This document shows, piece by piece, positions 34,057 to 57,338 of a stretch of 64,000 bases of DNA. Source of the DNA: Niastella vici (GTDB taxonomy: Bacteria; Bacteroidota; Bacteroidia; Chitinophagales; Chitinophagaceae); contig NZ_LVYD01000056.1 of the NCBI RefSeq assembly GCF_002077945.1, positions 1 through 64,000 of the forward strand, written 5' to 3'. Position 1 is the first letter of the stretch. Each line of letters opens with the position of its first letter. A program made the position numbers and the translations under genes. Below the pieces are notes generated by a model. It had not been told where the DNA came from. It saw only the letters and a list, made by a program, of their open reading frames with translations, and did not search any database.

Positions 34057-34301
34057 AATAATACGTGGTTTACTTCATTTAAACTGACCGGGCGTGCAAT
34101 CATGTAGTAAAGCAGGCACTTGGGGTCAGCAGGTGAAAAAATAAGACTATCTATTAAGACGCTTGGCGGTGTGCAATGTATTAGCCGGTGACAAAAATAT
34201 TTTTCCGGAAACTGTATAACTGGTTTATATCCCATACGAACGGTCATTGAAAGCAAACATTACCCAAAAAAGCGAGCAACACTACATATATTAATAAAAA
34301 A

Positions 34302-34323
34302 CCCTCCCGATGTATCGGGAGGG
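34302..34323 (-). terminator. Terminator of the CBM9-like protein gene
   Basis: Perfect 10-bp stem CCCTCCCGAT / ATCGGGAGGG, two-base loop, T run on the minus strand, 24 bases after the stop codon. Confidence 0.8.
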
Positions 34324-34346
34324 CATTTTCCCTATTTGTATGGAAA

Positions 34347-41540: not shown

Positions 41541-41550
41541 GCAGAAAGTA

Positions 41551-41655
41551 TTTGCTGATCTTGAGATTTTGGGATTTGCTCAGGCTTGAACATTTTCGGC
41601 AAATCTCAAAATCTCTAAATCCCCAAATCTCAGAATATTTTACTTCCTGCCTGCT
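41551..41655 (+). repeat. Octad palindrome A (GAGATTT-word), copy 1 of the GCTGAT-ended family
   Basis: Left arm TTGCTGATCTTGAGATTTTG then GGATTT, loop about 20 nt, right arm made of the complementary words AAATCTCAAAATCTCTAAAT and CCCCAAATCTC. The unit is about 8 nt, GAGATTTN. Outer flanks pair again (GCAG..AAGTA with TACTTCCTGC). The same left end, TTGCTGAT, starts copies at 47130 and 53733. Confidence 0.75.
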
Positions 41656-41767
41656 GCTTATTTTTTCTTCCCTTCATTTTTTTCCTTAACTTAATAGAGT
41701 ATTAAACGATTGCCTTCAACGCTCATTATCATTAGTCCGTTCCCTGCGGTCTTTAAAACCATGCCAT

Positions 41768-42220
41768 ATGCAACTAGCGGGGAAATATGTATTACATGCA
41801 GCACCACCCAAAGTTTGGGCGGCCCTGATGAATCCTGATACCCTCGCCCACATTGTGCCCGGCATTTCACGCCTTGAAAAAACAGGCGATCATACCTTTA
41901 ACTCAATTCTCGATATTAAACTGGGTCCGGTTAGCGGCTCTTTTACCGGCAACCTGCAACTCGACGACCTGCAGGAACCCAATGCATTTACCCTAAAAGC
42001 ACAACAGAACAGTAAAATAGGCAATGCCAATGCCGCCGTTAAAATTAACCTGTCGCCCATAGGCGACAGCGACACGGAGATCGCATTTGATGGCGATGTT
42101 AAAATCAGCGGCATGCTGGCTTCGTTGGGACAACGGGTCATGGGTGGGGTTTCGAACACGCTCACCAAACAATTTTTTTCAAACCTCGAAAAGGAACTGG
42201 CCAAAACATCAGCATCTTAG
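41768..42220 (+). CDS. coxG: CoxG-type SRPBCC protein of the molybdenum hydroxylase cluster
   Basis: A 150-residue SRPBCC/START-fold protein matching CoxG (carbon monoxide dehydrogenase subunit G): GKYVLHAAPPKVWAALMNPDT (5-25), HIVPGISRLEKTGD, LGPVSGSFTGN, FDGDVKISGMLASLGQRVM. CoxG-like proteins accompany CODH-type enzymes and probably help attach them to the membrane. It is first in a plus-strand series of six genes, which supports co-expression, with word-repeat palindromes in several of the gaps. Confidence 0.88.
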   Translation: MQLAGKYVLHAAPPKVWAALMNPDTLAHIVPGISRLEKTGDHTFNSILDIKLGPVSGSFTGNLQLDDLQEPNAFTLKAQQNSKIGNANAAVKINLSPIGDSDTEIAFDGDVKISGMLASLGQRVMGGVSNTLTKQFFSNLEKELAKTSAS

Positions 42221-42257
42221 AAAATAATATTGTTCATACATAATTAAACCACACTAC

Positions 42258-42743
42258 ATGAGCACCAGAATACATGTTACGGTCAATGGTGTTGAATACA
42301 GTCACTTTGTTGAACCCCGTTTACTGCTCGTAAACTATTTACGCGATGTATTGCGGCTGACAGGCACCCATGTGGGCTGCGACACCAGCAGCTGCGGCGC
42401 CTGCACCATACACGTGAACGGCAAAGCCACCAAATGCTGCACCATGCTGGCCGTGCAGGCCGATGGCTGCCAAATAACTACCATTGAAGGATTGTCGCAC
42501 AACGGTGAGCTGCATCCGCTACAGGAAGGATTTAACGAATGCCACGGATTGCAATGCGGCTTTTGCACACCAGGCATGATCATGACGGCTGCCGATCTGC
42601 TGCAACATACCCCCCAGCCAACGGAACAGGATATTCGCCATGCACTGGAAGGCAACTTCTGCCGTTGTACGGGATATCATAATATAGTGAAATCTGTACA
42701 GTATGCAGCTAAGAAAATAAGTGAAGCTGCTGTGGTACATTAA
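42258..42743 (+). CDS. coxS: (2Fe-2S) small subunit of a CODH/xanthine-dehydrogenase-type hydroxylase
   Basis: A 161-residue two-domain iron-sulfur protein. The plant-type ferredoxin cluster cysteines are in [16 protein letters not shown] (C41, C46, C49) and KCC (60-61). The second cluster is held by [10 protein letters not shown] and [11 protein letters not shown]. Length and both motifs are standard for CoxS/CutS. It transfers electrons from the molybdenum site to FAD. It lies between coxG and the large subunit, as in cox operons. Confidence 0.93.
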
Positions 42744-42808
42744 ACCAGTTGCCAGTTACCCAGGTACCGGTTGCCGGGCCTGGTAACAGGAAACCAGTAA
42801 CCGGTAAC
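42744..42808 (+). repeat. Heptad palindrome E (GTTACCxG-word)
   Basis: Words such as CCAGTTG, CCAGTTACC, GGTACC, GGTTGCC form the left arm, and their complements (GGTAAC, ACCAGTAACCGGTAAC) the right. It lies between the small and large subunit genes. Confidence 0.65.
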
Positions 42809-42858
42809 ATTCATCATGCCCTCAAAGCAACATTAATAACGATTCAACATTATTATAT

Positions 42859-45234
42859 ATGAGTACCAACGGACTGATAGGCCGAGCCGTTAAACGCGTT
42901 GAAGATAAACGGTTCATTACCGGCCATGGTAATTACACCGATGATATTGTACTGCCGCATCAAACCTATGCGGCATTTGTAAGAAGCCAGTATGCCCACG
43001 CACGCATCCTGAATATTGACACCAGTGCGGCGAAGGAAATGCCGGGCGTTATCGCCATTTTCACCGGCGCCGACCTGGCAGCAGTAAATGGCGTTCCCTG
43101 CGGCTGGCAGGTGAATTTCAAGAACGGCGATACCATGAAGGAACCCAAGCATCCCCTGCTGGTGGCCGATAAAGCCCGGCATGCCGGTGATGCCATTGCC
43201 GTCGTTATTGCCGAAACAAAAGAACAGGCCACCGATGCCGCCGAAGCAGTAAAGGTTGAGATGGAAGAATTGCCCTGCGTGGTAGATGCCGCCAAAGCGG
43301 TTCAGGCCGGCGCCCCGCTGGTGCACGATGACGTGCCCAACAATAAAAGTTTCGACTGGGTACTGGGCAATCCCATTGAAGAAGTGAACGAGGCCATGGA
43401 CAAGGCAGCACATGTGACCACGCTTGATTTTGTGAACCAGCGCCTGGTGCCCAATGCCATTGAACCCCGCAGCTATAACAGTTCGTACGATCCTGTTAGT
43501 GAGAAGTACACTTTATATACCAGCTCGCAAAATCCGCACCTGATCCGTCTGCTGATGTGCGCCTTTGTACTGGGCATTCCGGAACACAAGGTACGCGTGG
43601 TGAGCCCCGATGTAGGCGGCGGTTTTGGCAGCAAGATCTTTCATTATACCGAAGAAGCATTGCTCACCTGGTGCAGCAAAAAGATCGGCCGCCCGGTAAA
43701 ATGGACTTCTGAAAGATCCGAAAGTTTTTTACTGGATGCGCATGGCCGTGACCACGTTACCAAAGCCGAAATGGGTTTCGACGCCAATGGAAAAATAGTG
43801 GCGCTACGGGTAAAGACCTATGCCAATCTCGGCGCTTATCTTTCTACCTTCAGCAGCTGCGTACCTACTTATTTACATGGCACTTTGCTGCAGGGCTTAT
43901 ATACCACACCCAAAATAAATGTAGATGTAACGGCCGTATTCACCAATACCACTCCTGTGGATGCTTATCGCGGCGCCGGCCGCCCCGAAGCCACCTACTT
44001 ACTGGAACGGCTGATAGACCTGGCCGCACATGAAATGGATATGGACCCGGCCGAATTGCGTTTCAGGAATTTCATTCCGCCGTTTGATGGGGTGCAACAA
44101 CCGGGCTATCAAACCCAGGTAGCGCTGCAATACGACAGCGGTAATTATGAAGGCGTTTTAAAGAAAGGGTTGGAAATGGTGAATTATGCCGATGTACGGC
44201 GCGAACAACAGGAAGCGGCGCACAATGGAAAACTGGTAGGCATTGGTTTCTCCACATATATAGAAGCTTGTGGCATTGCCCCTTCGGCCATTGTAGGTTC
44301 ACTGGGTTGCCGGGCCGGCTTGTTTGAGTCGGCACAGGTACGGGTGCAGCCTACCGGCAAGGTAAGTGTGTATACCGGTTCGCATTCGCACGGTCAGGGG
44401 CACGAGACCACCTTTGCCCAGATAGTGGCCGATAAATTAGGCATCAACCTCGATGATGTGGAAATTGTACATGGCGATAGCGAAGCGGTGGCCTTTGGTA
44501 TGGGCACGTATGGATCGCGGAGCCTGGCAGTAGGCGGAAGCGCTATTATGAAAAGCATTGATAAAATAATAGAAAAGGGAAAGAAAATTGCCGCCCATAA
44601 ACTCGAAGCCAGTGCAGACGATATAGAATTTAAATCGGGCAATTTCACCGTAAAAGGAACCGACAAATCGATCGGGTTTGGCGAAGTAGCCCTTACGGCC
44701 TATGTACCGCATGTATATCCGAAAGACCTGGAACCGGGCCTTGATTTCGCCAGCTTTTACGACCCGGCCAACTTTACGTATCCATTCGGTTGCCATATTG
44801 CGGTGGTAGAAGTGGATAAGGAAACCGGCAAAGTGTCGCTAAAGCGCTTTATTGCGGTTGATGATGTGGGCAATGTGATAAACCCCATGATCGTGGAAGG
44901 ACAAATTCACGGCGGTGTAGTGCAGGGCATTGGGCAGGCCTTGTTCGAAGGCGCTGAATACGACGACAACGGCCAGCTTACCAATGCTTCGTATATGGAT
45001 TACTGCATGCCGCGGGCCGATGACTTCCCGATGTTTGAAACAGCCAGCCAGGTAACGCCTTGTCCGCACAACCCATTGGGCGTAAAAGGTGCGGGAGAAG
45101 CCGGCACCATTGGTTCTGCCCCAGCCATCGTGAATGCCGTGATAGACGCGCTCTGGAGCGGCGGCCACAAGGTGAAGGATATAAGAATGCCATTGACACC
45201 TGAAAGGGTTTGGCATGCCATGGTAGATGCGTAA
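42859..45234 (+). CDS. coxL: Molybdopterin-binding large subunit, form II CODH-like
   Basis: A 791-residue molybdenum hydroxylase. The active-site loop reads AYRGAGR (369-375), the form II CODH signature, and not the AYRCSFR loop with the copper-binding cysteine found in true CO dehydrogenases. So CO oxidation is doubtful and the substrate is unknown. Other family motifs: GGGFGSKIFHYTEEALL (about 253-269), ECG-type glutamate loop VKGAGEAGTIGSAP (about 743-756). It forms the catalytic subunit with CoxS and CoxM. Length is normal. Confidence 0.9.
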   Translation: MSTNGLIGRAVKRVEDKRFITGHGNYTDDIVLPHQTYAAFVRSQYAHARILNIDTSAAKEMPGVIAIFTGADLAAVNGVPCGWQVNFKNGDTMKEPKHPLLVADKARHAGDAIAVVIAETKEQATDAAEAVKVEMEELPCVVDAAKAVQAGAPLVHDDVPNNKSFDWVLGNPIEEVNEAMDKAAHVTTLDFVNQRLVPNAIEPRSYNSSYDPVSEKYTLYTSSQNPHLIRLLMCAFVLGIPEHKVRVVSPDVGGGFGSKIFHYTEEALLTWCSKKIGRPVKWTSERSESFLLDAHGRDHVTKAEMGFDANGKIVALRVKTYANLGAYLSTFSSCVPTYLHGTLLQGLYTTPKINVDVTAVFTNTTPVDAYRGAGRPEATYLLERLIDLAAHEMDMDPAELRFRNFIPPFDGVQQPGYQTQVALQYDSGNYEGVLKKGLEMVNYADVRREQQEAAHNGKLVGIGFSTYIEACGIAPSAIVGSLGCRAGLFESAQVRVQPTGKVSVYTGSHSHGQGHETTFAQIVADKLGINLDDVEIVHGDSEAVAFGMGTYGSRSLAVGGSAIMKSIDKIIEKGKKIAAHKLEASADDIEFKSGNFTVKGTDKSIGFGEVALTAYVPHVYPKDLEPGLDFASFYDPANFTYPFGCHIAVVEVDKETGKVSLKRFIAVDDVGNVINPMIVEGQIHGGVVQGIGQALFEGAEYDDNGQLTNASYMDYCMPRADDFPMFETASQVTPCPHNPLGVKGAGEAGTIGSAPAIVNAVIDALWSGGHKVKDIRMPLTPERVWHAMVDA

Positions 45235-45258
45235 TTCTCAAACAAGCAAATTAGTGTT

Positions 45259-46092
45259 ATGATCCCAGCAACATTCGAATACGAAAAAGTAACAACAGTT
45301 GATGAGGCCATTGCGGCCCTGTCGAACGACGATACCAAAATACTGGCCGGTGGCCATAGCCTGATACCAGCCATGAAGCTGCGACTGAACCGTCCGGCGA
45401 AACTGGTTGATATTGGCGGCATCAGGGGCCTGAAAGATATTAAAGAAGAAGATGGAGAAATAGTGATCGGCGCAGCAGCCTCGCATGCCGATATTATGTA
45501 CCACACACTCATCAGGCATCACCTGCCCCTTTTTACCGAAGGCGCAGCCATGATCGGCGATATGCAGGTGCGCAATCATGGTACCATTGGTGGCAGCCTG
45601 GCCCATGCCGATCCTGCAGCCGATTGGCCGGCCATGGTGCTGGCAGCCGGGGCAGCCATTGAAGTACAGGGCCCCAATGGCCGCAGAAGAATTCCTGCTA
45701 CAGAATTCTTTACGGGTTTGTTCTCCACAGCTCTTGAACCAAATGAGATCATCACCGCCGTTCGCATTCCGGTTCCAGCCAATGGCGCCAAAAGCACCTA
45801 TCAAAAATTTGCGCAACCCGCCTCGCGTTTTGCCCTGGCTGCCTGTGCCGTAATGCGCTTTGCCGATGGTAAAACGAACATAGCATTCACCGGCGTAGGA
45901 GAAAATGCATTCCGCGATACGGGCGCCGAACAGGCGATTACCGGAAAAGCAATTGATGAAAACACCATCAACGCGGCTGTAAATGCAGCATTAGAGGGAG
46001 TAACTGTAATGAGCGATCATTATGCGTCGGAAGCTTACAGAAAACATTTGGCTAAAGTTTACCTTAAGAAAGCTTTGATGATGGTAAAGTGA
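45259..46092 (+). CDS. coxM: FAD-binding subunit of the molybdenum hydroxylase
   Basis: A 277-residue FAD_binding_5 protein with the flavin motifs AGGHSLIPAMKLRLN (about 31-45) and TIGGSLAHADPAADW (about 110-124), followed by a CO_deh_flav_C domain (AEQAITGKAIDENTINAAVN). It receives electrons from CoxS. The gap from coxL is 24 bases. In canonical clusters the M gene precedes S and L; here the order is S-L-M. Confidence 0.9.
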   Translation: MIPATFEYEKVTTVDEAIAALSNDDTKILAGGHSLIPAMKLRLNRPAKLVDIGGIRGLKDIKEEDGEIVIGAAASHADIMYHTLIRHHLPLFTEGAAMIGDMQVRNHGTIGGSLAHADPAADWPAMVLAAGAAIEVQGPNGRRRIPATEFFTGLFSTALEPNEIITAVRIPVPANGAKSTYQKFAQPASRFALAACAVMRFADGKTNIAFTGVGENAFRDTGAEQAITGKAIDENTINAAVNAALEGVTVMSDHYASEAYRKHLAKVYLKKALMMVK

Positions 46093-46126
46093 TATGGGTT
46101 TGAGAAAGATCCGCTGTGATCAAAAA

Positions 46127-46198
46127 CTGTTACAAGTTACAGGATTCAGGTTGCAGGGATTGGAGAACCTGAAACTTGTAACCTGCAACCTGTAACAT
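46127..46198 (+). repeat. Heptad palindrome F (GTTACAG-word)
   Basis: Left arm GTTACAAGTTACAGGATTCA then GGTTGCAGG; right arm complement GTTACAGGTTGCAGGTTACA then AGTTTCAGG. Both arms have strict 7-nt periodicity (GTTACAG, GTTGCAG, GTTACAA, GTTTCAG). It separates coxM and the MoxR-type gene. Confidence 0.75.
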
Positions 46199-46200
46199 TC

Positions 46201-47103
46201 ATGCCCAGCAATAATTTACAACTTTCCGACATTCAGTCGATGCTACAACAACAGGGGTACATTACAGACAAATCCGTTGCCATGTCGGTGTTCCTTTCGT
46301 TGCAGTTGAATAAACCCCTGTTAATTGAAGGGCCGGCCGGCGTGGGTAAAACCGAAATTGCCAAAGTGATGGCCAATGCCCTGCAAACCGATCTAATTCG
46401 CCTGCAATGCTACGAAGGACTTGATGCCACGCATGCCCTGTACGAATGGAATTACCAGCGCCAGTTGCTGCACCTGAAAATGACGGAACACGACACCCAC
46501 ACCATTGATGAAAAGGAAAGAACGATCTTCAGCGAACCCTTCCTCATGAAGCGGCCCTTGTTGCAGGCTATTAGCCAACCCAAAAAACCGGTACTGCTGA
46601 TAGATGAAGTTGACAGAAGCGATGAAGAGTTTGAAAGTTTTTTGCTGGAAGTGCTGAGCGACTGGCAGATCACCATCCCCGAGATCGGCACCATTAAGGC
46701 CACGCATATTCCCCAGGTAATTTTGACCGGCAATCGCACCCGCGAATTAAGCGAAGCGTTGCGGCGGCGATGCCTTTACCTGTATATCGATTATCCCGAT
46801 TTTGAAAAAGAATGGCTGATCGTAAAAAATAAAGTACCAGGTATTGATGCAATCCTCAGTGAACAGATCACCCGGTTCATGCAGGAATTGCGTAAAATGA
46901 AACTGGAGAAAACACCCGGATTGGCCGAAACCCTCGACTGGGCCATGGCGCTATCGGCCCTGCACATAGAGCACCTTGACAAAACAATCATAGAGCAAAC
47001 ATTAGGCGTTGTGCTAAAAGAATGGCAGGATACAAGGCAGGTGCAGGTTTCGTTGGGGGAATTGTTGGAGAAAACAGGGATAATTGCAAAAATTGAAACA
47101 TAA
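46201..47103 (+). CDS. coxD: MoxR-family AAA ATPase, CoxD-like
   Basis: A 300-residue MoxR AAA+ ATPase: Walker A GPAGVGKTE (about 40-48), Walker B VLLIDEVDRSDEEFE (about 129-143), sensor VILTGNRTRELSEALRRRC (about 173-191). CoxD-type chaperones mature the molybdenum or metal site of the large subunit. The paired VWA protein follows, so this is the standard CoxD-CoxE couple. Confidence 0.9.
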   Translation: MPSNNLQLSDIQSMLQQQGYITDKSVAMSVFLSLQLNKPLLIEGPAGVGKTEIAKVMANALQTDLIRLQCYEGLDATHALYEWNYQRQLLHLKMTEHDTHTIDEKERTIFSEPFLMKRPLLQAISQPKKPVLLIDEVDRSDEEFESFLLEVLSDWQITIPEIGTIKATHIPQVILTGNRTRELSEALRRRCLYLYIDYPDFEKEWLIVKNKVPGIDAILSEQITRFMQELRKMKLEKTPGLAETLDWAMALSALHIEHLDKTIIEQTLGVVLKEWQDTRQVQVSLGELLEKTGIIAKIET

Positions 47104-47110
47104 AAGCCTT

Positions 47111-47225
47111 GTAGGAAAATTGCTGATTTTGAGATTTCTTGATTTTGGGATTTGTACAGGATTGTATTTTCCGATAAATCTCTAAATCCCGAAATCTCTA
47201 AATTTCTTACTTCTTACATCCTATT
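47111..47225 (+). repeat. Octad palindrome B, copy 2 of the GCTGAT-ended family
   Basis: Left arm TTGCTGATTTTGAGATTTCT then TGATTTTGGGATTT; right arm words AAATCTCTAAATCCCGAAAT and CTCTAAATTT, then CTTACTTCTTACATCC. The outer flank words GTAGGAAAAT and CTTACTTC resemble element D. It lies between coxD and coxE and includes the coxE leader. Confidence 0.75.
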
Positions 47226-47235
47226 TCTTTTACCT

Positions 47236-48354
47236 ATGAGCACGCGTCTTACAGCACTTTCCCAGAATATAGTCCAATTCGCCCGCTTCCTGCGGCTGCA
47301 GGGGTTTACTGTGGGCATAGAAGAAGAAACGATGATACTGCAATCGCTGCAGCATTTTGATTATACCAGTCACGAATCATTTTTCCTGTTGTTGAAGATG
47401 ATCATCTGCCGCAGCAAGAGTAACCTGAATGATTTTGATGAGCTTTTCCGCCAGTACTGGAAACAACTTGACAAACTACTTGATGCCAAACGAAAAGAAG
47501 GCACAAAAAAGAAAAAACCGCCCACCCCCAAAGCGCAATTTGCGGCGCTCAATGCCTGGTTAAAAGGCCGGCCTAATAAAGAAACAGAAGAAACCGCCAG
47601 CTACAGTGTAAAGGAATCCCTGTCGCAAAAAGACTTTTCTGCCGTTCCCGATAATGAAGTAGCGGAACTGATGAAATGCATCCGGAGCTTATCGCGGCGG
47701 CTGGCAGCCAAAGCGAACCGCCGGTATGAGTTATCGAATAAGACCGACCTGCCCGATCTGCGGCAAACCCTGCGCAAGAACCTGCGCCGCGGCGGTGAGC
47801 TCATCGACATTATGCATCGCCGCCCCAAACGCAACCGCGTAAAGCTGCTGATGTTATGCGACGTAAGTAAATCAATGGAATTGTATTCTTCCTTCCTGCT
47901 GCAGTTCATGTATGCCTTTCAACAGGTATACCAGCGCATGGAAACATTCATCTTCAGCACCTCCCTGCAACGGATAACGCCCATGCTGAAACAAAAACAT
48001 TTCGGGGAAGCCCTTGAACTGCTGAGCACGGCCAATGAAGGCTGGAACAGCGGCACCCGCATCGGCGAATCGCTTAACACATTTGTGAACGAATACAGCC
48101 ACAAACTGATCGACTCAAAAACCATCGTCATTATTCTAAGCGATGGCTGGGATACAGGTAATATCGAGCTGCTGAAACAAAGCATGCATCATATTCACTA
48201 CAGATCGAAAAAAGTGATCTGGCTAAATCCACTGGCCGGCTACACAGCCTACCGGCCCGAGGTGGCCGGCATGAAAGCTGCCATGCCGTTCATTGATGTT
48301 TTTGCTGGGGTATACAATATTGAAAGCTTGAGAAGGCTTTCGAAGTGGATATAA
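47236..48354 (+). CDS. coxE: VWA-domain protein, CoxE-like
   Basis: A 372-residue protein starting at ATG of MSTRLTALSQ; an upstream frame runs through the repeat and was rejected. N-terminal helical region, then a von Willebrand A-like domain with a MIDAS motif DVSKS (about 212-216), the later conserved threonine in GTRIGESL and aspartate in ILSDGWDTG. It partners the MoxR ATPase in metal-centre maturation of the hydroxylase. A basic segment PRRRFLR-like (RRPKRNRVKLL) precedes the VWA domain. Confidence 0.88.
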   Translation: MSTRLTALSQNIVQFARFLRLQGFTVGIEEETMILQSLQHFDYTSHESFFLLLKMIICRSKSNLNDFDELFRQYWKQLDKLLDAKRKEGTKKKKPPTPKAQFAALNAWLKGRPNKETEETASYSVKESLSQKDFSAVPDNEVAELMKCIRSLSRRLAAKANRRYELSNKTDLPDLRQTLRKNLRRGGELIDIMHRRPKRNRVKLLMLCDVSKSMELYSSFLLQFMYAFQQVYQRMETFIFSTSLQRITPMLKQKHFGEALELLSTANEGWNSGTRIGESLNTFVNEYSHKLIDSKTIVIILSDGWDTGNIELLKQSMHHIHYRSKKVIWLNPLAGYTAYRPEVAGMKAAMPFIDVFAGVYNIESLRRLSKWI

Positions 48355-48360
48355 AAAACC

Positions 48361-48427
48361 GAAGTAGGAAGTAAGAGGTATGAAGTTCCCGAAATTTTAG
48401 AATTCCTACTTCTTACCTCCTACTTCA
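48361..48427 (+). repeat. Octad palindrome D (GAAGTAGG-word)
   Basis: GAAGTAGGAAGTAAGAGGTA on the left pairs with the complement of TACTTCTTACCTCCTACTTC on the right. The unit is about 8 nt. It lies after coxE and before the DHFR-like gene on the opposite strand, so it may also serve as a bidirectional terminator. Confidence 0.7.
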
Positions 48428-48482
48428 TAAACCTATAATCTCAAAGGTTCATTATTAGCAGTTAACATTCATAGACCACAAA

Positions 48483-49049
48483 CTAACCCTTCTTATAATG
48501 CAAACACACTACCCCCGAAGCAAATTGATAGCTTTTCACCAGGTTCAATTTGGTGACCTCTTTTACATCTTTAAATAAGGGAATGCCCTGGCCCAGTATA
48601 ATAGGATTTATAAACAGCCAGAACTCATCTATGAGGCCATGATGCATAAGCGTATGCGAGGCGCCGGGACTGCCAAAAATAATGATCTCCCTGCCTGCCT
48701 GTTGTTTCAATGCCTTCACGCGGTGAGCAATATCCTCGCCGATAATAATGGTATTCGGCAATTGTTGTCCCTGCATGGTCTTTGAAATGACAACTTTGTC
48801 AACCTTTTTATACCAGGCAGAATGCTCTTTATCATGTTTGCTGGCATTGGGCTGATCGGCTGCCGTTGGCCAGTAAGCTTCCATCATTTGGTAAGTAACC
48901 CGGCCATATAAAGCGGTATCGCTTTCATTGGTGCGCTGGCCTGCATAGTCAAACATTTCATCATCTACTTTTATCCAATCCATTTCACCATTTGGGCCGG
49001 CTACAAAACCATCCAGAGAAACGTGCATAAATTGAACCAGTGGTCGCAT
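48483..49049 (-). CDS. Dihydrofolate-reductase-like (RibD C-terminal) protein
   Basis: A 188-residue RibD_C/DHFR-like reductase: VSLDGFVAGPNGEMDWI (near 8-24), TALYGRVTYQMMEAYWP, EIIIFGSPGASHTLMHHGLI, DEFWLFINPIILGQGIPLF. The start at MRPLVQF is used; the upstream frame adds nine residues without homology. Such proteins are widespread in Bacteroidota and rarely characterised; NADPH-linked reduction is inferred. It is convergent with coxE. Confidence 0.86.
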   Translation of the reverse strand: MRPLVQFMHVSLDGFVAGPNGEMDWIKVDDEMFDYAGQRTNESDTALYGRVTYQMMEAYWPTAADQPNASKHDKEHSAWYKKVDKVVISKTMQGQQLPNTIIIGEDIAHRVKALKQQAGREIIIFGSPGASHTLMHHGLIDEFWLFINPIILGQGIPLFKDVKEVTKLNLVKSYQFASGVVCLHYKKG

Positions 49050-49142
49050 ATACTTTTGTTTTAATTGATAGAACAAAGCTATACATGAAAACCGGTTTTA
49101 CCGGGGGTGTATTGCGACAATCGCGCGGGGCAATTCCGTCAA

Positions 49143-50369: not shown

Positions 50370-50815
50370 ACTTTTCTGAGATCAATAAATAACTCATTAT
50401 TGTTTACCGTAACAGGGAAGTTGCGCAGGTCTTTATCGGCAGGGCCGCTGGTCACTTTTCCTTTGTTATTGAATTCGCTTCCATGCGCCGAACATTGCAG
50501 CTGATCGCCCGAAGCCTGCAGTTCCGCTCCCTGGTGGGTGCAGCGCATCCATAAAGCGCTGTATTCGGTTTCACCAAAGCGATAGACGTATATATTATAT
50601 TGAAGGCTTTCGTTATTCACAATGATAAACGGCCGGTAACCGGCGGGTTTGCCTTTCTTTTTTATTACAAACTCTTCCAGCCCAACGGTCAATCCATCTT
50701 TTCCCATGGTGCCTTTTGCATAGCGGGTGGTTGCGCAGGACGACAACAAACCCGATACAGCAGTAGCACCCAAACAGGCTGAACAACTATTTACAATGAA
50801 TTCTCTGCGGTTCAT
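50366..50815 (-). CDS. Rieske (2Fe-2S) lipoprotein
   Basis: A 149-residue Rieske protein with N-terminal RR motif (MNRREFIV) and lipobox LLSSC (C27), so a Tat-exported, lipid-anchored protein is likely. The cluster ligands are C92 and H94 in RCTHQG, and C108 and H111 in QCSAHGSEF. The spacing and GAELQ/GSEFNNKG context are normal. It belongs to an operon with a di-haem cytochrome and a porin. No partner cytochrome b gene is nearby, so it is not part of a bc complex here. Confidence 0.87.
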   Translation of the reverse strand: MNRREFIVNSCSACLGATAVSGLLSSCATTRYAKGTMGKDGLTVGLEEFVIKKKGKPAGYRPFIIVNNESLQYNIYVYRFGETEYSALWMRCTHQGAELQASGDQLQCSAHGSEFNNKGKVTSGPADKDLRNFPVTVNNNELFIDLRKV

Positions 50816-50832
50816 CTACTTGTATTTAGTGA

Positions 50833-52032
50833 TTACAATGATTCAAGGAATTTGATCAGCAGCGATCTGTCGGCCGCCGATAATTGCTGAAAACGCGTAT
50901 TGCTGGTCTGCCCTTCCCCACCATGCAGCGTGATCGCCTGTTCAATACTGGTAGCACGCCCATCGTGCAGCAAGAAGTATTGCTGGCCCTGCGAGTTTTT
51001 CGAAAGCCCCAGTCCCCACAGCGGCGGCGTACGCCATTCAGCAGGCAATGCAGAACCTTCAGTATAACCATCGTTGAGGCCGCTGCCCATATCGTGCAGC
51101 AACAGATCAGTATAAGGTTGAAATGTTTTATTGGCCAGCGCAGCAATGGCGTAAGTACCTGTTTTCAATTCGGGGGTATGACATTTGGCGCAGCCGATAT
51201 TGATAAAGAGTTGTTTTCCGCTCATTACATCGCCATTGTTCTGGTTGCGTTGTACCGGCGCTTTCAGCGTTCTTAAATAAAATACCAGATCAAGCACTTT
51301 CTGGTTTGTTACTTCCGGATCTACTACCTCGTGGGTATACGAATCGTATGGTTCATAATAAGAACAAATACCCATATCCTGGTTGTAGGCATTGGCCGTT
51401 TGCTGCATCAGGTCGTACACGGCTGCTTTTTTACCAAAGCGCCCGATGTATCTGTTATTATGCTCCACGGTGCCGGGGCGATAAGTAATATACGAGGGTA
51501 GCGTTATCCAGTTTACCCGCCCCGATATTCCATCGCCGTCGGCATCGTTAGGGTCAGCCATTGATAATAGGGTATTGTCGGGCACCGCATCCAGAAAACC
51601 AAGCCCGGTATTGGCGGGTGGGGTGAATTTGGAAAAAGTGGCGCCAACAGGTATTTGCTCCGGCATAAAAGAAGGAATGGCGCGGTTTTGCAATTGCGGA
51701 CCGCCCTGGTCCTTAAAATGATTTCCGGTACTATCGGTTTGCCCAAACCGCGTTAGCGTGGTAAACGGGTGGCCCTTGCCATCACCTGCATGGCAACTGC
51801 CGCAGGAAGTGGAAACAAATAAAGGCCCCAGTCCGTTTGCGGCGGTAAATACATCATCGTTAAACGCTACATCGCCCCGCAGGAAGATCTGGTGCTGCTC
51901 GCCGGTGAGCCCTTCCACCGGCCCGTCGAGGATTGCATCATTAGCCGGCTGTTTTGTAAGCACTTTATCACAAGCCAGCGCAGCCAGTATAATAGTAACG
52001 AGCGAGCCCATCACCACCCATTTCTTTGTCAT
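50833..52032 (-). CDS. Di-haem thiol-oxidoreductase-type cytochrome c (DUF1111), lipoprotein
   Basis: A 399-residue DUF1111 (di-haem oxidoreductase) protein with two c-type haem sites, CGSCH (77-81) and CAKCH (about 280). The lipobox is LAALAC (C21). Further conserved: LFVSTSCGSCHAGDGKGHPF, GRFGKKAAVYDLMQQTANAY, TPPLWGLGLSK, LLHDGRATSIEQAITLHGGE. Members resemble MauG-type peroxidases and occur in iron-acquisition loci of Bacteroidota. It is the first gene of the operon and lies next to a DtxR-type operator. Confidence 0.88.
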   Translation of the reverse strand: MTKKWVVMGSLVTIILAALACDKVLTKQPANDAILDGPVEGLTGEQHQIFLRGDVAFNDDVFTAANGLGPLFVSTSCGSCHAGDGKGHPFTTLTRFGQTDSTGNHFKDQGGPQLQNRAIPSFMPEQIPVGATFSKFTPPANTGLGFLDAVPDNTLLSMADPNDADGDGISGRVNWITLPSYITYRPGTVEHNNRYIGRFGKKAAVYDLMQQTANAYNQDMGICSYYEPYDSYTHEVVDPEVTNQKVLDLVFYLRTLKAPVQRNQNNGDVMSGKQLFINIGCAKCHTPELKTGTYAIAALANKTFQPYTDLLLHDMGSGLNDGYTEGSALPAEWRTPPLWGLGLSKNSQGQQYFLLHDGRATSIEQAITLHGGEGQTSNTRFQQLSAADRSLLIKFLESL

Positions 52033-52086
52033 ACAGAAGAATTAAAGTTGCCCAAAAATATATAATTAGATCAATAAAACAATAAA

Positions 52087-52104
52087 AATTAGGCAAGCCT
52101 AATT
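52087..52104. promoter_or_regulatory. DtxR/IdeR-type operator with overlapping divergent -7 elements
   Basis: AATTAGGC-AA-GCCTAATT: an 8-bp inverted repeat that matches the DtxR-family box TTAGGxxnnnxxCCTAA. TAATTTTG (52100-52107) is a perfect plus-strand -7 element for the regulator. The minus-strand equivalent, TAATTTTT, is near-consensus for the cytochrome operon. A repressor bound here would block both promoters. Confidence 0.75.
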
Positions 52105-52153
52105 TTGCAACTTTTGTGCATCTTTCCCTAATTTGCCCGAAAATTGGGAGCCC

Positions 52154-52810
52154 GTGCATTCATCTGCCGAAGAAAATTATCTGAAAGCCATCTATAAATT
52201 ACAGGAAGCCAACGGCGAAATGGTTGCCACTTCTGCCCTGGCGCAAGTTTTAGGCATCCACATGGCCTCGGTGACCGACATGCTTAAAAAGATGAGCGCC
52301 AAAAAATTGGTAGCCTATCAAAAATCAAAAGGATTCAAGCTTACCGAAAAGGGAAGGCTGGCGGCCATTGGCATCATTCGCAAACACCGCCTGTGGGAAG
52401 TATTCCTCGTAGACAAGCTGGGTTTCCGGTGGGATGAGGTGCATGAGATCGCGGAACAGCTGGAACATATCCATAGCCAGGAACTGATCGACAAGCTGGA
52501 TGCCTATCTCGATTTTCCCAAAGCCGACCCCCATGGCGACCCCATTCCCGATGCCAAGGGCAATTTTGCCCTTAACAAATCGGTGCTGTTGGCGGCTTTA
52601 CCGCCCGGCAGCCAGGGCAAATTCACGGGGGTTACCGACCACTCCTCGGCTTTTTTAAATTACCTCGACAAGATCGGCCTGTCACTTGGCGACCCGGTGA
52701 AAGTGAAAGAGGTGGAAGAATATGATAAGAACTATACCCTGATGCTTAAAGGAAAGAAAGCAGTGGTGGTGAGTTTTAAAGTAGCCAACAGTTTATTGAT
52801 CAGCGAGTAG
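52154..52810 (+). CDS. DtxR-family metal-dependent transcriptional regulator
   Basis: A 218-residue (from GTG) regulator with the standard winged helix (EENYLKAIYKLQEANGEM, TSALAQVLGIHMASVTDMLKKM), the dimerisation/metal domain (RLWEVFLVDKLGFRWDEVHEIAEQLEHI) and a C-terminal SH3-like FeoA domain (YLDKIGLSLGDPVKVKEVEEYD). It lacks the second-cysteine signature I would need to tell iron from manganese sensors. A TTG 21 bases upstream is an alternative start. Divergent from the cytochrome-Rieske-porin operon across a matching operator. Confidence 0.87.
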   Translation: MHSSAEENYLKAIYKLQEANGEMVATSALAQVLGIHMASVTDMLKKMSAKKLVAYQKSKGFKLTEKGRLAAIGIIRKHRLWEVFLVDKLGFRWDEVHEIAEQLEHIHSQELIDKLDAYLDFPKADPHGDPIPDAKGNFALNKSVLLAALPPGSQGKFTGVTDHSSAFLNYLDKIGLSLGDPVKVKEVEEYDKNYTLMLKGKKAVVVSFKVANSLLISE

Positions 52811-52858
52811 ATCAATACCATAAAAAATATTTATTATTGGGTCCTGTTAACCAATACC

Positions 52859-53731
52859 ATGGCCGTTACTAATCCATTGCTGGAGCTACCCCAATCGGTG
52901 GTAAATGTACCTTTCGAGATACATACCATGGAGTGGATAGCCCAGAACCGGTTCCAACAAAATGAAACCCCGCACCGGCATAATTACTTTGTGATCATCT
53001 GGGTAAAAAAAGGAACAGGCCAACACCTGATCGACCTGGAAAAATATGCGCTGGAAGACAATACCGTTTATTGCATTACGCCCGGGCAGGTGCATCAGCT
53101 GAACACTACCGGTGAAACTGAAGGATATGTGATCTCGTTCATGGCCGAGTTCCTGGGTGTGGCTGAAGAAAATTACGATCTGCTGTTCAATACCGGGCTC
53201 TTCTATACCTTTTCCAATTCACCGATGATAAAAGTGAACGCGGAAATGAGTGCCGAAATGCAGGATGCCGTTGACAAAATGCTGAAAGAGTACAATAACT
53301 TTTTTATTTTAAGGGCCGAGATCCTGCGTGGTTTTCTGAAGATATTTCTCATATACCTTACCCGCCAGTTCGAAAGACCACGCGAAACTGAAGCACAATC
53401 AAAAAGCATTGACCTGGTAAAACAATTCTTTGCCCTGGTTGAAAAAAATTACACCACAAAGAAAATGGTTACCGATTATGCCGAAGCGCTGGCTGTTACG
53501 CCTAACCATTTGAATGAAGTGGTGAAAAAAATAACCGGTTCCCCCGCCAGTCATCATATTCAGCAACGCATTATCCTGGAAGCAAAACGCCAGGCAGTGT
53601 ATTCACGGGTTACCATGAAAGAGATCGCCTATGAGCTGGGATTTGATGACACGGCCCATTTCAGCAAGTTCTTCAAAAACGCTTCAGGGGAAAGCTTTTC
53701 GGATTTCCGGAGCCGGAACCAGAAGGAATAA
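52859..53731 (+). CDS. AraC-family transcriptional regulator
   Basis: A 290-residue regulator. N-terminal cupin-type sensor (HRHNYFVIIWVKKGTGQHLI, about 41-60; ITPGQVHQL), C-terminal double helix-turn-helix (YAEALAVTPNHLNEVVKKIT and MKEIAYELGFDDTAHFSKFFKN). A perfect TATTGG-N10-CCAATA inverted repeat (52835-52856) lies directly before the start codon and may be its own operator. It precedes the YceI and mhqO-mhqD genes, which it might control. Confidence 0.87.
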   Translation: MAVTNPLLELPQSVVNVPFEIHTMEWIAQNRFQQNETPHRHNYFVIIWVKKGTGQHLIDLEKYALEDNTVYCITPGQVHQLNTTGETEGYVISFMAEFLGVAEENYDLLFNTGLFYTFSNSPMIKVNAEMSAEMQDAVDKMLKEYNNFFILRAEILRGFLKIFLIYLTRQFERPRETEAQSKSIDLVKQFFALVEKNYTTKKMVTDYAEALAVTPNHLNEVVKKITGSPASHHIQQRIILEAKRQAVYSRVTMKEIAYELGFDDTAHFSKFFKNASGESFSDFRSRNQKE

Positions 53732-53843
53732 TTGCTGATTTAGAGATTTAGAGATTTTGGGATTTATTTAAAATCAGGGCCGCACTATAATTCTCCAATC
53801 TCAAAATCCCGAAATCCCGAAATCTAAAAATCCCCAAAATCTT
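53731..53843 (+). repeat. Octad palindrome C, copy 3 of the GCTGAT-ended family
   Basis: Left arm ATTGCTGATTTAGAGATTTA then GAGATTTTGGGATTT; right arm CAATCTCAAAATCCCGAAAT then CCCGAAATCTAAAAATCCCC. The unit is 8 nt with minor variation. Loop holds GGGCCGCACTATAATTC, whose GCCGCRCTAYA core recurs in element G. Confidence 0.75.
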
Positions 53844-53923
53844 ATCCATGATTTGTACAACATTATCCTGCGATCATCAATTGCCTGCGGGCCCCATTTT
53901 TTGTTATTTTGACAGTTGAAATT

Positions 53924-54466
53924 ATGAGTACAACAGTAAATAAAGCAACCTGGGCCATCGATCCCGTTCACTCAACCATCAGGTTCGATGCCAAATACCT
54001 GTTGATCACGTCGGTATCAGGCTGGTTCAGGGAATTTGAAGGAACCCTGCTGAGCGACTGTACTGGTTTTAACAACAGTGAAATTCAGCTTACTATATAT
54101 ACCCATTCGCTGAATACCGGCAATAATGAACGCGATAACCATTTGCGTTCACCCGATTTTTTCGATGCCCGGCAATTCCCCACTATACAGTTTCGCTCAA
54201 CCGCAGTTACCACCAACGATAAACGTATTGAGGTAACCGGCATATTAACGGTAAAAGGCATTGAGCATCCCTTTACATTTAATGCCACTTTCCTAGGTAT
54301 GTGTGCCGATCCCCTGGGCAATACAAAGGCCGCATTTGAAATGGATACCGTGTTGAACCGGAAGGATTTCAATATTACCTGGAACCAGTTGTTCGATAAG
54401 AACGGCTTATTATTAAGCGATGAAGTAAGGGTGCATTGTGACCTGCAATTGTTAAAGCTTTCTTAA
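53924..54466 (+). CDS. YceI-family protein (cytoplasmic form)
   Basis: A 180-residue lipocalin-like YceI protein: WAIDPVHSTIRFDAKYLLIT, LNTGNNERDNHLRSPDFFDA, VTGILTVKGIEHPFTF, FNITWNQ. YceI proteins bind isoprenoid-like ligands; function is otherwise unclear. It has no signal peptide. The ATG of MSTTVNK is used; five extra residues upstream were rejected. It is the first of two tandem YceI genes. Confidence 0.86.
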   Translation: MSTTVNKATWAIDPVHSTIRFDAKYLLITSVSGWFREFEGTLLSDCTGFNNSEIQLTIYTHSLNTGNNERDNHLRSPDFFDARQFPTIQFRSTAVTTNDKRIEVTGILTVKGIEHPFTFNATFLGMCADPLGNTKAAFEMDTVLNRKDFNITWNQLFDKNGLLLSDEVRVHCDLQLLKLS

Positions 54467-54479
54467 CACAATTATTAAA

Positions 54480-54664
54480 TAGCATATATGAGTGGCGAGC
54501 AGGGGTCCTGTTCGCCATTCGCTTTTAATGGCTCTTCTTCAGGAAGTTGTGGGGCTTCCATAAAATGTACAACAGATTCCAGTATATCACTATTCTCCAG
54601 CCCCTGTTTCCTGACGACATTTGTGATGTCAATTAAACAATAAATAATCAAAAAAATAAAAACA
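54480..54664 (-). other. Possible short coding remnant on the minus strand
   Basis: The minus strand encodes an open segment with protein-like content, VVRKQGLENSDILESVVHF then MEAPQLPEEEPLKANGEQ, ending in a stop near 54471-54473. No good start codon is present. It could be the tail of a lost gene or chance. Confidence 0.25.
54488..54523 (+). repeat. Short palindrome of GAGTGGC words
   Basis: GAGTGGCGAGCAGG pairs with CCTGTTCGCCATTCGC. The words match those in the namZ tract (GGCGAGT, GGTGAAT on its reverse strand). Confidence 0.5.
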
Positions 54665-55201
54665 ATGGCACAAGTTAAATGGACCCTCGATCCGATGCAC
54701 AGTGAAATTACTTTTAAAGTAAAACACCTTATGATCAGTACTGTTACCGGTCAGTTCAGAGCTTTTAATGTAACAGCAGAAACAGCTGGCAATGATTTCA
54801 GTCAGCCCGGTTCAATAGATGTAACCATCGACGTTTCCTCTATCGATACCAATAACGAACAAAGAGATGGCCACCTGAAATCAGAAGATTTCTTCAGCGC
54901 CGCCAACCACAACCAGATCGTCTTCAAAGGAACCAAACTGGATGTTAAAGGTGATGAAGGCAAACTCCATGGCGACCTTACCATTAAAGGCATTACCAAA
55001 CCTGTAGTGTTGACTGTAGAGAACGGCGGTGTGGTAGTTGACCCATATGGACAAACAAAAGCTGGTTTTACCGTAACCGGTAAATTGAGCAGAAAAGAAT
55101 TTGGTTTAACCTGGAGTGCAGTGACTGAAGCTGGTAATGTAGTGGTAGGTGATGATATTAAGATCACTGCTGAAATACAGCTGGTTAAACAAGCGGCCTA
55201 A
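54665..55201 (+). CDS. YceI-family protein (second copy)
   Basis: A 178-residue YceI protein without signal peptide: KWTLDPMHSEITFKVKHLMI, DTNNEQRDGHLKSEDFF, LHGDLTIKGITKPVVLTV, GKLSRKEFGLTWS. It is clearly related to the preceding YceI protein (shared pattern of N(N/E)(E/Q)RDxHLxSxDFF) but diverged, so it is an old duplication or separate acquisition. Close spacing suggests a role alongside its neighbour and the mhq genes. Confidence 0.88.
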   Translation: MAQVKWTLDPMHSEITFKVKHLMISTVTGQFRAFNVTAETAGNDFSQPGSIDVTIDVSSIDTNNEQRDGHLKSEDFFSAANHNQIVFKGTKLDVKGDEGKLHGDLTIKGITKPVVLTVENGGVVVDPYGQTKAGFTVTGKLSRKEFGLTWSAVTEAGNVVVGDDIKITAEIQLVKQAA

Positions 55202-55216
55202 GTTGTACCATCCCAA

Positions 55217-55261
55217 ACCGGTGAAACACCGGCTTTCAACAAGGCTGGTGTTTCATCCGGT
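55217..55261 (+). terminator. Long hairpin between yceI and mhqO
   Basis: ACCGGTGAAACACCGGC pairs with GCTGGTGTTTCATCCGGT around a short loop. No T run follows, so termination is plausible but unproved. Confidence 0.45.
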
Positions 55262-55310
55262 GATACAACATATTAAACCTTATCGTAGCTTCATATAAGA
55301 ATTTACAATT

Positions 55311-56249
55311 ATGGAAGATAAAATTTTGGGCATACATCACATTACGGCGATAGCCGGTGACGCCCAGCGCAACTACGATTTCTATACAAAAGTGCTCGGT
55401 TTAAGACTGGTAAAGAAAACGGTGAACTTTGATGACCCGGGCACTTACCATTTCTATTATGGTAATGAAAACGGTACCCCTGGTACCATTCTTACCTTTT
55501 TTCCCTGGACGCATGTAAAACCGGGACGTGTTGGAACGGGTATGGCTACCGATATCGGCTATGCGGTTCCCGCCGGCAGTCTCGATTTCTGGAGCGATCA
55601 TTTTGAGAAATACCAGGTACGGTTCGGACAAAAAGACGAACAGTTTGGCGAACAGATCCTTCGTTTTGAAGACCCGGACGGTTTACGTATACAACTGGTT
55701 GAGCCTAAAAAGGCCGACAACCGCACACCCTGGGCAACCAGTGAGGTAAGCAAGGATGTAGCGATAAAAGGATTTCACAGTATTGTGCTGACGTTGCGGA
55801 ATATAAAACCCACCGCCAGCATTCTCACCGATATTTTCGGTTATAAATTGTTACAACAGGAAGGTAACAGGTACCGCTTTGTAACTGATGCCATAGAGAA
55901 CGCCGCTATAGTTGATCTGGTTGAAGAACCGGAAGTAACCCATGGACTGGTAGCCGGTGGCACCAACCACCACGTAGCCTTCCGCGTGAAGAATGAGGAA
56001 GTACTTATGAACTTCCGTGAAAAAATTGTCAGCAAGGGACATAATATAACACCGAAGATAGACCGTAATTATTTTTACTCTTTGTATTTCCGCGAACCCG
56101 GCGGCGTGTTGTTTGAACTGGCTACAGATAATCCGGGTTTTGCGATCGATGAGCCGGTGAATGAACTGGGTACGCATTTGAAACTGCCTGTGCAGTATGA
56201 ACCCGAACGGGCCACAATTGAAAAAGTGTTACCCCAACTGATACAGTAA
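55311..56249 (+). CDS. mhqO: Ring-cleaving dioxygenase of the MhqO type (VOC superfamily)
   Basis: A 312-residue protein with two glyoxalase/VOC modules: IHHITAIAGDAQRNYDFYTK (8-27) and FHSIVLTLRNIKPTASILT (about 154-172). The metal ligands expected are H in HHIT, H in GTNHHVAFR and E in PGGVLFELATDNPG. The pattern matches MhqO/MhqA extradiol dioxygenases involved in resistance to hydroquinones. mhqD follows 4 bases later, so the pair is one operon. Confidence 0.85.
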   Translation: MEDKILGIHHITAIAGDAQRNYDFYTKVLGLRLVKKTVNFDDPGTYHFYYGNENGTPGTILTFFPWTHVKPGRVGTGMATDIGYAVPAGSLDFWSDHFEKYQVRFGQKDEQFGEQILRFEDPDGLRIQLVEPKKADNRTPWATSEVSKDVAIKGFHSIVLTLRNIKPTASILTDIFGYKLLQQEGNRYRFVTDAIENAAIVDLVEEPEVTHGLVAGGTNHHVAFRVKNEEVLMNFREKIVSKGHNITPKIDRNYFYSLYFREPGGVLFELATDNPGFAIDEPVNELGTHLKLPVQYEPERATIEKVLPQLIQ

Positions 56250-56253
56250 TACT

Positions 56254-56877
56254 ATGCATACAAAACAAATTATACAAACTGGAAAGCAAACAGGCGAAGC
56301 CACAAAAGCATTGGTGATGGTACATGGACGAGGCGGCAGTGCAGAAGACATTCTGGGGCTTGCGAATTATTTGCCGGTAAACGACTTCGCTTTGTTTGCG
56401 CCCCAGGCTACCAATAATACCTGGTATCCGTATTCATTTCTTACGCCCCCCAAAGAAAATGAACCCTGGCTATCCAGCGCCCTGGCGGTGTTGAAAGATA
56501 CAGTAGCAGACGTGCAGGCCACCGGTATTAAAACAGAAAACATCTATTTCCTCGGCTTTTCGCAGGGCGCCTGTTTAACGCTGGAATTTGTTACCCGCAA
56601 CGCCACTAAATATGGCGGGGTGGTAGCCTTCACCGGCGGACTGATAGGCGATAAAATATATGATCAAAATTATGCCGGTGATTTTGCCGGAACACCCGTT
56701 TTCATTGGCACCAGTGATCCCGACCCGCATGTACCGGTTGAAAGAGTGCATGCCACGGCTGAGATCTTATCGGGCATGCACGCAAAGGTGACAAAGAAAA
56801 TTTACAAGAATATGGGGCACACCATTAGCCAGGATGAGATAAACCTGGTGAATGAATTGATCTTTAAAGAATTGTAA
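56254..56877 (+). CDS. mhqD: MhqD-type carboxylesterase / hydrolase
   Basis: A 207-residue alpha/beta hydrolase of the phospholipase/carboxylesterase type: MVHGRGGSAEDIL (about 24-36), nucleophile in GFSQGACLTLE (about 103-113), catalytic aspartate in SDPDPHVP and histidine in NMGHTI. In Bacillus the MhqD protein acts with MhqO in quinone detoxification. The 4-base spacing after mhqO supports the same role. Confidence 0.85.
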   Translation: MHTKQIIQTGKQTGEATKALVMVHGRGGSAEDILGLANYLPVNDFALFAPQATNNTWYPYSFLTPPKENEPWLSSALAVLKDTVADVQATGIKTENIYFLGFSQGACLTLEFVTRNATKYGGVVAFTGGLIGDKIYDQNYAGDFAGTPVFIGTSDPDPHVPVERVHATAEILSGMHAKVTKKIYKNMGHTISQDEINLVNELIFKEL

Positions 56878-56896
56878 CTTTGGAAAAACCATAGTT

Positions 56897-57208
56897 ATGT
56901 ACGCATACGATACCATTACCGAAGCGGTTGCCGAATTAAAGAAACGCGGTTATACATACGATTTCAATATCCGCGACAACCGCCTTGCCAGCGATCACCT
57001 GGGTGAGCATTATGGACACGATGATTTTGAGATCATAGAAGTGTACCGCTTTGAAGGAGAATCCGATCCCGCTGACGAAGCAGTGGTTTATGCCATTGAA
57101 GCGCCTTCCGGTGCAAAGGGTATTTTAGTGAATGGATACGGTACCTATGCCGATGATAAGAACACAGAATTTTTGCAACAGTTACATGAGAGAATACAAA
57201 AACTCTAA
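56897..57208 (+). CDS. Small conserved protein of Bacteroidota, function unknown
   Basis: A 103-residue protein (AYDTITEAVAELKKRGYTYD, DEAVVYAIEAPSGAKGILVN) with no signal peptide. Relatives of this size are often labelled phosphoribosylpyrophosphate synthetase in annotation, but it lacks the length and the PRPP-binding motif of such an enzyme. A small cytoplasmic regulator is as likely. It closes the mhq unit. Confidence 0.7.
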   Translation: MYAYDTITEAVAELKKRGYTYDFNIRDNRLASDHLGEHYGHDDFEIIEVYRFEGESDPADEAVVYAIEAPSGAKGILVNGYGTYADDKNTEFLQQLHERIQKL

Positions 57209-57336
57209 GACCTTAGTTATAAGTTCTTAGTTGGTTCAGCAATTTTAAAGCCGCGCTACAGCTTGATTTCTCAAACCGTGGCACGGCTTATTTGCTTTTT
57301 TTCAAAACTTAATAACCGACAAACTAAAAACTTACT
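57209..57336. repeat. Heptad palindrome G (CTTAGTT-word) with an inner hairpin
   Basis: Outer arms: CTTAGTTATAAGTTCTTAGT (7-nt period) on the left and words AAACTTAATAACCG and AAACTAAAAACTTAC on the right. An inner stem pairs AGCAA..AAGCCGCGCTAC with GTGGCACGGCTT..TTGCT. It fills the gap between two convergent genes. The GCCGCRCTAYA core is shared with element C. Confidence 0.65.
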
Positions 57337-57338
57337 AT

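Follow-up and report, generated by a model that had tools for sequence, protein, structure and literature searches.

Convergent arrays of seven- and eight-base words: a dispersed class of intergenic inverted repeat in Niastella

Background

The closest described relatives of the elements reported here are the inverted pairs of (GGGANTN)n heptamers of Xanthomonas, for which the published report gives 70 and 75 convergent pairs, describes quadruplexes formed in vitro by the GGGANTN word, and leaves function open (PMC4692102). Our subject is a set of intergenic palindromes, built of arrays of a seven- or eight-base word that point towards one another, in a 64,000-nucleotide stretch of contig NZ_LVYD01000056.1 of the soil bacterium Niastella vici (Chitinophagaceae); "the window" below means that whole stretch, which lies within a source genome of 10.06 Mb in 134 contigs. 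A preliminary description had noticed these palindromes between genes from 41 to 57 kb and knew of no name for them, which is only partly right, since the Xanthomonas pairs (PMC4692102) share their layout. No description was found for Niastella or Chitinophagaceae in the open-licence PubMed Central literature; PMC3751351, in the part available, mentions Niastella for genome size only.

As in the account of the Xanthomonas heptamers (PMC4692102), each unit of the period-7 families that we call B, C and D combines a fixed core with two free letters (family A has period 8, and family E deviates), and the arrays form convergent pairs that lie near the end of the upstream open reading frame (ORF) and are rare between divergent ORFs. 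Xanthomonas is described there as having a single G-run word, whereas about a dozen words are used here, some of them eight bases long and most without GGG; the Niastella elements differ further in having family-specific loops, in being nested in some cases, and in that one gap can carry different words in different species. The core words GATTT, GANGTA, GTTNCC, GTTNCA and AATGG contain no GGG, so to judge from their letters a quadruplex explanation would be unable to serve these elements.

Eukaryotic foldback transposons, which are much larger, also have inverted arms composed of short subrepeats in tandem; neither target duplications nor coding copies were seen here. Repetitive extragenic palindromic (REP) sequences have stems of 5–13 bp with a GTAG or CGTC foot, according to PMC3733652. 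Our elements resemble the systems treated there, which join REP sequences, bacterial interspersed mosaic elements (BIMEs) and REP-associated tyrosine transposases (RAYTs), in being dispersed palindromes near gene ends with several families per genome and species-specific abundance; they are unlike REP sequences in having arms of 14–43 bases composed of repeated words, and families A and C have no GTAG or CGTC foot. The earlier view that they are neither REP sequences nor insertion sequences (IS) or miniature inverted-repeat transposable elements (MITEs) is therefore right as regards the REP stem and foot, and signatures of an IS or MITE were likewise not seen. A last comparison is with the TAACTGA direct repeats of Beggiatoaceae, Cyanobacteria and five Bacteroidetes, which are likewise intergenic heptamer arrays, mostly just before start codons, and for which the S1, Csp and Csr proteins have been proposed as readers; as reported, these are one word in direct repeat, with a single inverted case in the most-studied genome (PMC4679880). 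We tentatively read the Niastella palindromes as REP-like elements in which recognition words are iterated in convergent arrays and which slippage has remodelled, and consider this nearly as probable as its negation.

Results and discussion

Abundance in gene gaps

The intergenic part of 464 kb of the source genome, with genes called as the longest ORFs, was scanned for periodicity at a strict and a looser setting, with shuffled controls. The strict setting gave 14 tandem runs of period 7 and 13 of period 8 and none in the shuffles; the remaining runs were four of period 11, three of period 20, one of period 3 and multiples of 7 or 8, and there were none at periods 4, 5, 6, 9, 10, 12 and 13. 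At the looser setting 32 runs had period 7 and 27 had period 8, and periods 5, 6, 9 and 10 gave one to three runs each versus 0 to 1.3 in shuffles. Inverted repeats in the gaps of 1.264 Mb numbered 125 at a score of at least 14 (none shuffled) and 180 at a score of at least 12 (five shuffled). Among the best 130 of these 180 the arms had period 7 in 67 and period 8 in 31, and a somewhat different rule classed 120 of the 180 as periodic. Inverted arrays of period 7 or 8 are a real dispersed class, far above chance and recurring in the same gaps. Their presence in the gaps of the window agrees with the preliminary description, as does the outcome of the shuffle control that it proposed: shuffles do not yield such palindromes (none at a score of 14 or more). 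The range of 41 to 57 kb does hold elements; they are not local to it, being spread across the sampled genome and the genus.

Words and layout

The elements are non-coding, about 60–130 bases long, and consist of two convergent arrays of some three to five units each around a short spacer. We sorted their words into families A–H by patterns of our own. A different word had been supposed for each site; in fact about a dozen are reused (GATTTNGN, GANGTAN, GTTNCCN, GTTNCAN, AATGGNN and others), and GAAGTAGG, which had been assigned a period of 8, repeats with a period of 7. Window elements used as queries gave 50, 33 and 115 matches in the same genome, where only 40 first-look candidates were scored per query and the counts include self, overlapping and opposite-strand matches and, for the 115, one long array. 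The pattern GATTTNNNGATTTNNNGATTT has 300 copies in the source genome and 428 and 301 in two other Niastella, against 4, 2 and 2 copies of a reversed-pattern control in those three genomes; among the 195 genomes of the family, no other has more than 36. When the sample was searched with motif patterns for seven families, the hits formed 283 clusters, with a 9- to 303-fold enrichment between genes; 125 of the clusters are convergent (><), one is divergent (<>) and 157 are single arrays.

Of 120 periodic inverted repeats, 99 have more G than C in the inward-pointing arm, 14 have less and 7 have as much of one as of the other; the corresponding counts for 60 non-periodic ones, 27, 32 and 1, show no bias of this kind. 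In the units of families A–D the two freest positions carry 0.28–1.02 bits (in B these are positions 7 and 3, and position 3 still favours the letter A, at 0.78), and all other positions carry at least 1.17 bits save position 7 of family A, at 1.04. If the palindromes are indeed iterated recognition words, a sequence-specific factor would read their fixed core letters unit by unit, and an element whose arrays stand head to head would present the same appearance to transcription or replication arriving from either side.

A different explanation, which we consider quite unlikely, is that RNA hairpins are selected as such, as protectors of mRNA 3' ends or as attenuators for which any word is adequate. 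Tandem words and a G-rich inward arm would not be required for this, and the free letters of the two arms do not behave as paired bases should: they pair at chance in families C (p 0.91) and D (p 0.39), and in A (0.56 versus 0.51 expected, p 0.043) and B (0.56 versus 0.49 expected, p 0.018) the excess is small and, because inverted repeats were picked for complementarity, generous. With free letters pairing at chance in two of four families and slightly above it in the other two, selection for structured RNA, one of the origins first proposed, is unsupported as the sole cause. A six-frame stop barrier, conceivable with units of 7 and 8 that are not multiples of 3, was considered and rejected; all three frames are stopped in 69 of 121 elements versus 56.8 expected, and the count of words with a stop on at least one strand, 18 of 20 against 14.3 after permutation (p 0.025), is weak and comes from a hand-picked list.

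Placement relative to genes

Elements occupy 45 of 114 convergent gaps, 121 of 428 codirectional gaps and 18 of 141 divergent gaps. In codirectional gaps their median distance is 25.5 nt from the upstream stop and 70.5 nt from the next start, and the upstream stop is the nearer for 93 of 128 elements. REP-like elements so placed would be transcribed just behind the stop codon and might act like a REP/BIME hairpin at the mRNA 3' end, being tolerated or useful behind stops and selected against in promoters. The site behind stops and the scarcity between divergent genes speak also for selected RNA hairpins, as does the folding of the elements in the window: seven stretches, each compared with 200 shuffles, fold better than the shuffle mean (z -2.2 to -7.7), although in three of the seven 1 to 4 of the 200 shuffles fold equally well.

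Intrinsic termination, which the preliminary description had also offered as an origin, is not supported by a comparison of the two ends. Among codirectional periodic elements a run of four or more T stands at 13 of 78 3' ends versus 7 of 78 5' ends, so that T runs are scarcely enriched there; for non-periodic inverted repeats the figures are 15 of 34 and 5 of 34. In convergent gaps a T run is found on either side of 10 of 34 periodic and 10 of 22 non-periodic repeats.

Evolution in orthologous gaps

Ten Niastella genomes were searched. Across 32 orthologous gaps, which make 186 gap-species cells, 52 cells are occupied versus 0 of 177 shuffled; by gap type, occupancy is 9 of 19 cells in convergent gaps, 43 of 152 in codirectional gaps and 0 of 15 in divergent gaps. 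Gap 47104–47235 of the window was scored empty in all seven species because it is cut at 47151 by a TTG start, and elements are otherwise visible there. Occupancy clumps by gap, with a chi-square of 79.9 (the largest of 5000 simulations is 73.4). In 98 co-occupied species pairs, sorted without a random baseline, 55 have similar words (at least 0.6), 15 differ in period, and 28 have the same period with less similar words. The comparison of orthologous gaps suggested at the outset thus shows that the element is often kept and the identity of its word often changed.

The gap upstream of a conserved Y1-transposase-like gene illustrates such change (G and L numbers are our handles for genomes and loci). 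AATGGNN predominates among its units in G000, G071, G150, G195 and G197, and AATCGNN predominates on either arm in G196, G198 and G200; G201 is without an element. The stock of words also depends on the species. The density of GATTT arrays is 65–88 per Mb in G000 and in G071 and G150, for which sampling was partly at GATTT hits, and 21 per Mb in G196; small samples (41–140 kb) of the five remaining species gave none. Here a repeated DNA word changes in both arms together at sites defined by their neighbouring genes, and sequencing could therefore separate slippage, template switching, transposition and protein-driven maintenance.

In gap 9714, in the aro region, the arms are 93–98% identical and the loops 59–82% identical in six comparisons among G000, G071, G195 and G197, and in each comparison two or three mismatched columns are unchanged. 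Over 108 species comparisons, which are not independent and include only alignments with arms at least 70% identical, columns changed on both sides number 188 versus 104 expected, with 85 still paired, and 475 one-sided changes break a pair. Co-evolution of the two arms is thus a matter of words, and of base pairs only in part, so that the earlier statement that both sides evolve together holds for the core of the word and only weakly letter by letter. The excess of both-sided changes, together with the finding of different words in the same gap, speaks for selected RNA hairpins, but the 475 pair-breaking changes against 85 compensated ones, and mismatches without clear G-U preference (81 G-U versus 69 A-C), count against them. 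G-U wobble as a sign of RNA pairing and letter-by-letter compensation as the main constraint, the latter being weak, were both rejected.

Dispersal, nesting and slippage

Among 118 loops, 45 same-family pairs match at 30 bits or more and none do so in three shuffled sets; across families there are three such pairs, all involving one B element that holds a nested A element. Since loops and words are common to distant copies within a family, whole elements have been copied from place to place in the genome. At least 7 of the 34 family-A elements listed, including that at 47119–47196 of the window, stand, by reading, at the centre of a family-B element. Pairs whose loops are at least 75% alike differ by 0.10–0.20 in the loop, a figure that this selection makes look conserved, and by 0.46–0.50 in the free letters, compared with 0.53–0.61 in the free letters of random pairs within a family; core divergence is near zero by construction of the mask.

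In locus L064 (9090–9850; G000:C43) the 5' arm of a family-B element has expanded and now contains some 50 near-perfect copies of a double unit of 14 bases, and a short 3' arm remains; this is a record of slippage and likely a variable locus. Strand slippage, which had been proposed as the origin of the palindromes, therefore does act, and fails as the whole account because words and loops are reused across the genome. The fuller version of that idea is that the DNA makes itself: slippage of one or two units, together with template switching from arm to arm (quasi-palindrome correction), would build the elements and keep them uniform where they stand, and any function would be slight. The unit-wise growth in L064, the switch seen at one gap in G196, G198 and G200, where AATCG replaces AATGG in most units on either arm, the 85 both-sided changes that keep pairing, and an earlier proposal of heptamer slippage cited in PMC4692102 all favour it. 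Identical words and loops at distant sites do not, free letters are scarcely copied from arm to arm, and neutral homogenisation would not leave particular letters free and the rest fixed across copies; we judge this explanation unlikely, though it carries some weight.

The REP-like layout raises the question of a REP/RAYT-type system moved by a Y1 transposase-like protein, which we regard as very unlikely. All 10 Niastella genomes carry a single strong Y1_Tnp match (E <1e-19, in an open frame of 146–171 amino acids), seven of the ten have weak extra matches, and an AATGG/AATCG element lies upstream of the gene in 8 of 9 loci at a low threshold and in 6 of 9 at a stricter one. However, the neighbouring gap 8548 in the aro region, which has no such gene, is occupied in nine of nine species, families A and C, read by eye, have no GTAG or CGTC foot, and Y1_Tnp is present in 106 of 148 Bacteroidota, of which ten were sampled (five with and five without a match) and only G004, which has a match, contained elements. 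The RAYT link was set aside as not specific. In L175 (1473–1900) the Y1-transposase-like gene, a 146-amino-acid frame, stands by reading between aroG- and aroB-looking genes. The Niastella gene is perhaps domesticated.

Several observations weigh against REP-like elements built of recognition words. Neither a binding factor nor a copying enzyme was identified, and no clean empty site with a target duplication was seen among relatives that are about 80–87% identical. More than half of the clusters are single arrays, and family E, with three positions at 0.86–0.96 bits, departs from the rule of two free letters. The word can switch in both arms at one site, which is unexpected under a fixed reader unless whole elements are replaced, and the both-sided changes above independence indicate that pairing matters too. 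Finally, a 100-kb sample of G195 contains no period-7 or period-8 inverted repeat.

Distribution among bacteria

Inverted arrays of period 7 or 8 occur at 82.5 per Mb in 60 stretches of the source genome and 84.8 per Mb in 42 loci of other Niastella, densities that lean upward because some sampled stretches were chosen from contigs or places with hits (G071 and G150 at GATTT hits); the cluster counts and the GATTT densities given above share this bias. Density varies within the genus, with nine such repeats in a 100-kb sample of G196 and three in one of G200. Other named Bacteroidota have 18.4 per Mb in 40 loci, 8 of them positive; ten further Bacteroidota genomes, at 40 kb each, have 2.5 per Mb, with only G004 positive. 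The named loci all represent one shared neighbourhood and do not sample genomes at random. In 37 loci judged to lie outside Bacteroidota or unassigned the density is 5.5 per Mb, and two of the three cases are alike by eye. These are convergent period-7 arrays at 19403–19470 in L132 (Latescibacteria) and 5663–5774 in L135 (Armatimonadetes), and they give a hint of a class that crosses phyla.

It is possible, though we think it rather doubtful, that convergent arrays of 7 or 8 bases are a widespread and unrecognised intergenic class of bacteria, in Bacteroidota, Xanthomonas and perhaps Latescibacteria and Armatimonadota, in which a reader contacts a fixed core at each step, its word preference drifts by species, and words turn over as places stay. 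If so, scattered reports of bacterial heptamer repeats would be joined into one class with a shared grammar (units of 7 or 8 bases in which some two letters are free, convergent arrays whose G-rich side faces inward, and a site behind stops), and the quadruplex explanation of the Xanthomonas case would not be general.

Elements and genes of the window

Two family-A elements (GATTTNGN, period 8) lie in the window at 41550–41628 (arms 41550–41579 and 41599–41628; score 17.5, fold z -3.9) and at 53737–53842, just 3' of an AraC-type gene (fold z -2.2; 4 of 200 shuffles equal). A third family-A element, at 47119–47196, is nested in the remains of a family-B element, with TGTAGGAA before it and TTCTTACTTCTTAC after it, by eye; the 3' arm of this older enclosing element (GANGTAN) was found by the array scan at 47204–47229, and in the same gap (47104–47235) G195, G199 and G200 have plain B elements. 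A complete family-B element (GANGTAN, period 7) stands between convergent genes at 48361–48426 and folds best (z -7.7). The family-D element (GTTNCAN, period 7) at 46128–46197 lies between genes resembling a flavin adenine dinucleotide (FAD) subunit and an AAA ATPase (fold z -5.9), and an irregular family-C element (GTTNCCN, period 7) is at 42748–42812 (fold z -2.9; 2 of 200 shuffles equal). At 57209–57345, again between convergent genes, a weak CTTAGTT-type stretch surrounds an inner hairpin. This palindrome does fold, as had been noticed (z -3.9; 1 of 200 shuffles equal), and as an array it does not hold up; the array scan found none there, it is absent from the best 130 of the 180 inverted repeats, and none of four species has it in the orthologous-gap comparison. 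A search of 41000–58000 with the Rfam 15 covariance models gave a single hit, over 41538–41647, of 24.8 bits against a threshold of 67.5.

Genes around the gaps resemble three molybdenum-hydroxylase subunits, an AAA ATPase, its VWA partner, iron-dependent-repressor and AraC-type regulators, YceI proteins and others. The ATPase (46201–47103) is 91–94% identical to homologues in the closest named relatives, N. soli and N. populi, and in a Niastella metagenome-assembled genome; its best match is to the MadB family, and the matches of both ATPase and VWA partner are below curated cut-offs. From 42258 to 48354 the molybdenum-hydroxylase-like subunits lie beside an AAA ATPase and a VWA protein with weak MadB/MadC matches, and this gene order is largely kept in other Niastella loci.

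Two other kinds of repeat were encountered. Arrays of period 11 form a separate class (L026 574–801, L014 19195–19232 and L020 6312–6355), and two of those in G200 (L221–L225) are palindromic (TGTGTCAACCA). Non-periodic hairpins with TCCCGA...TCGGGA stems between A/T runs recur at 34296–34329 of the window and in L024 (16772), L027 (17676) and L068 (16559), and are likely ordinary terminators.

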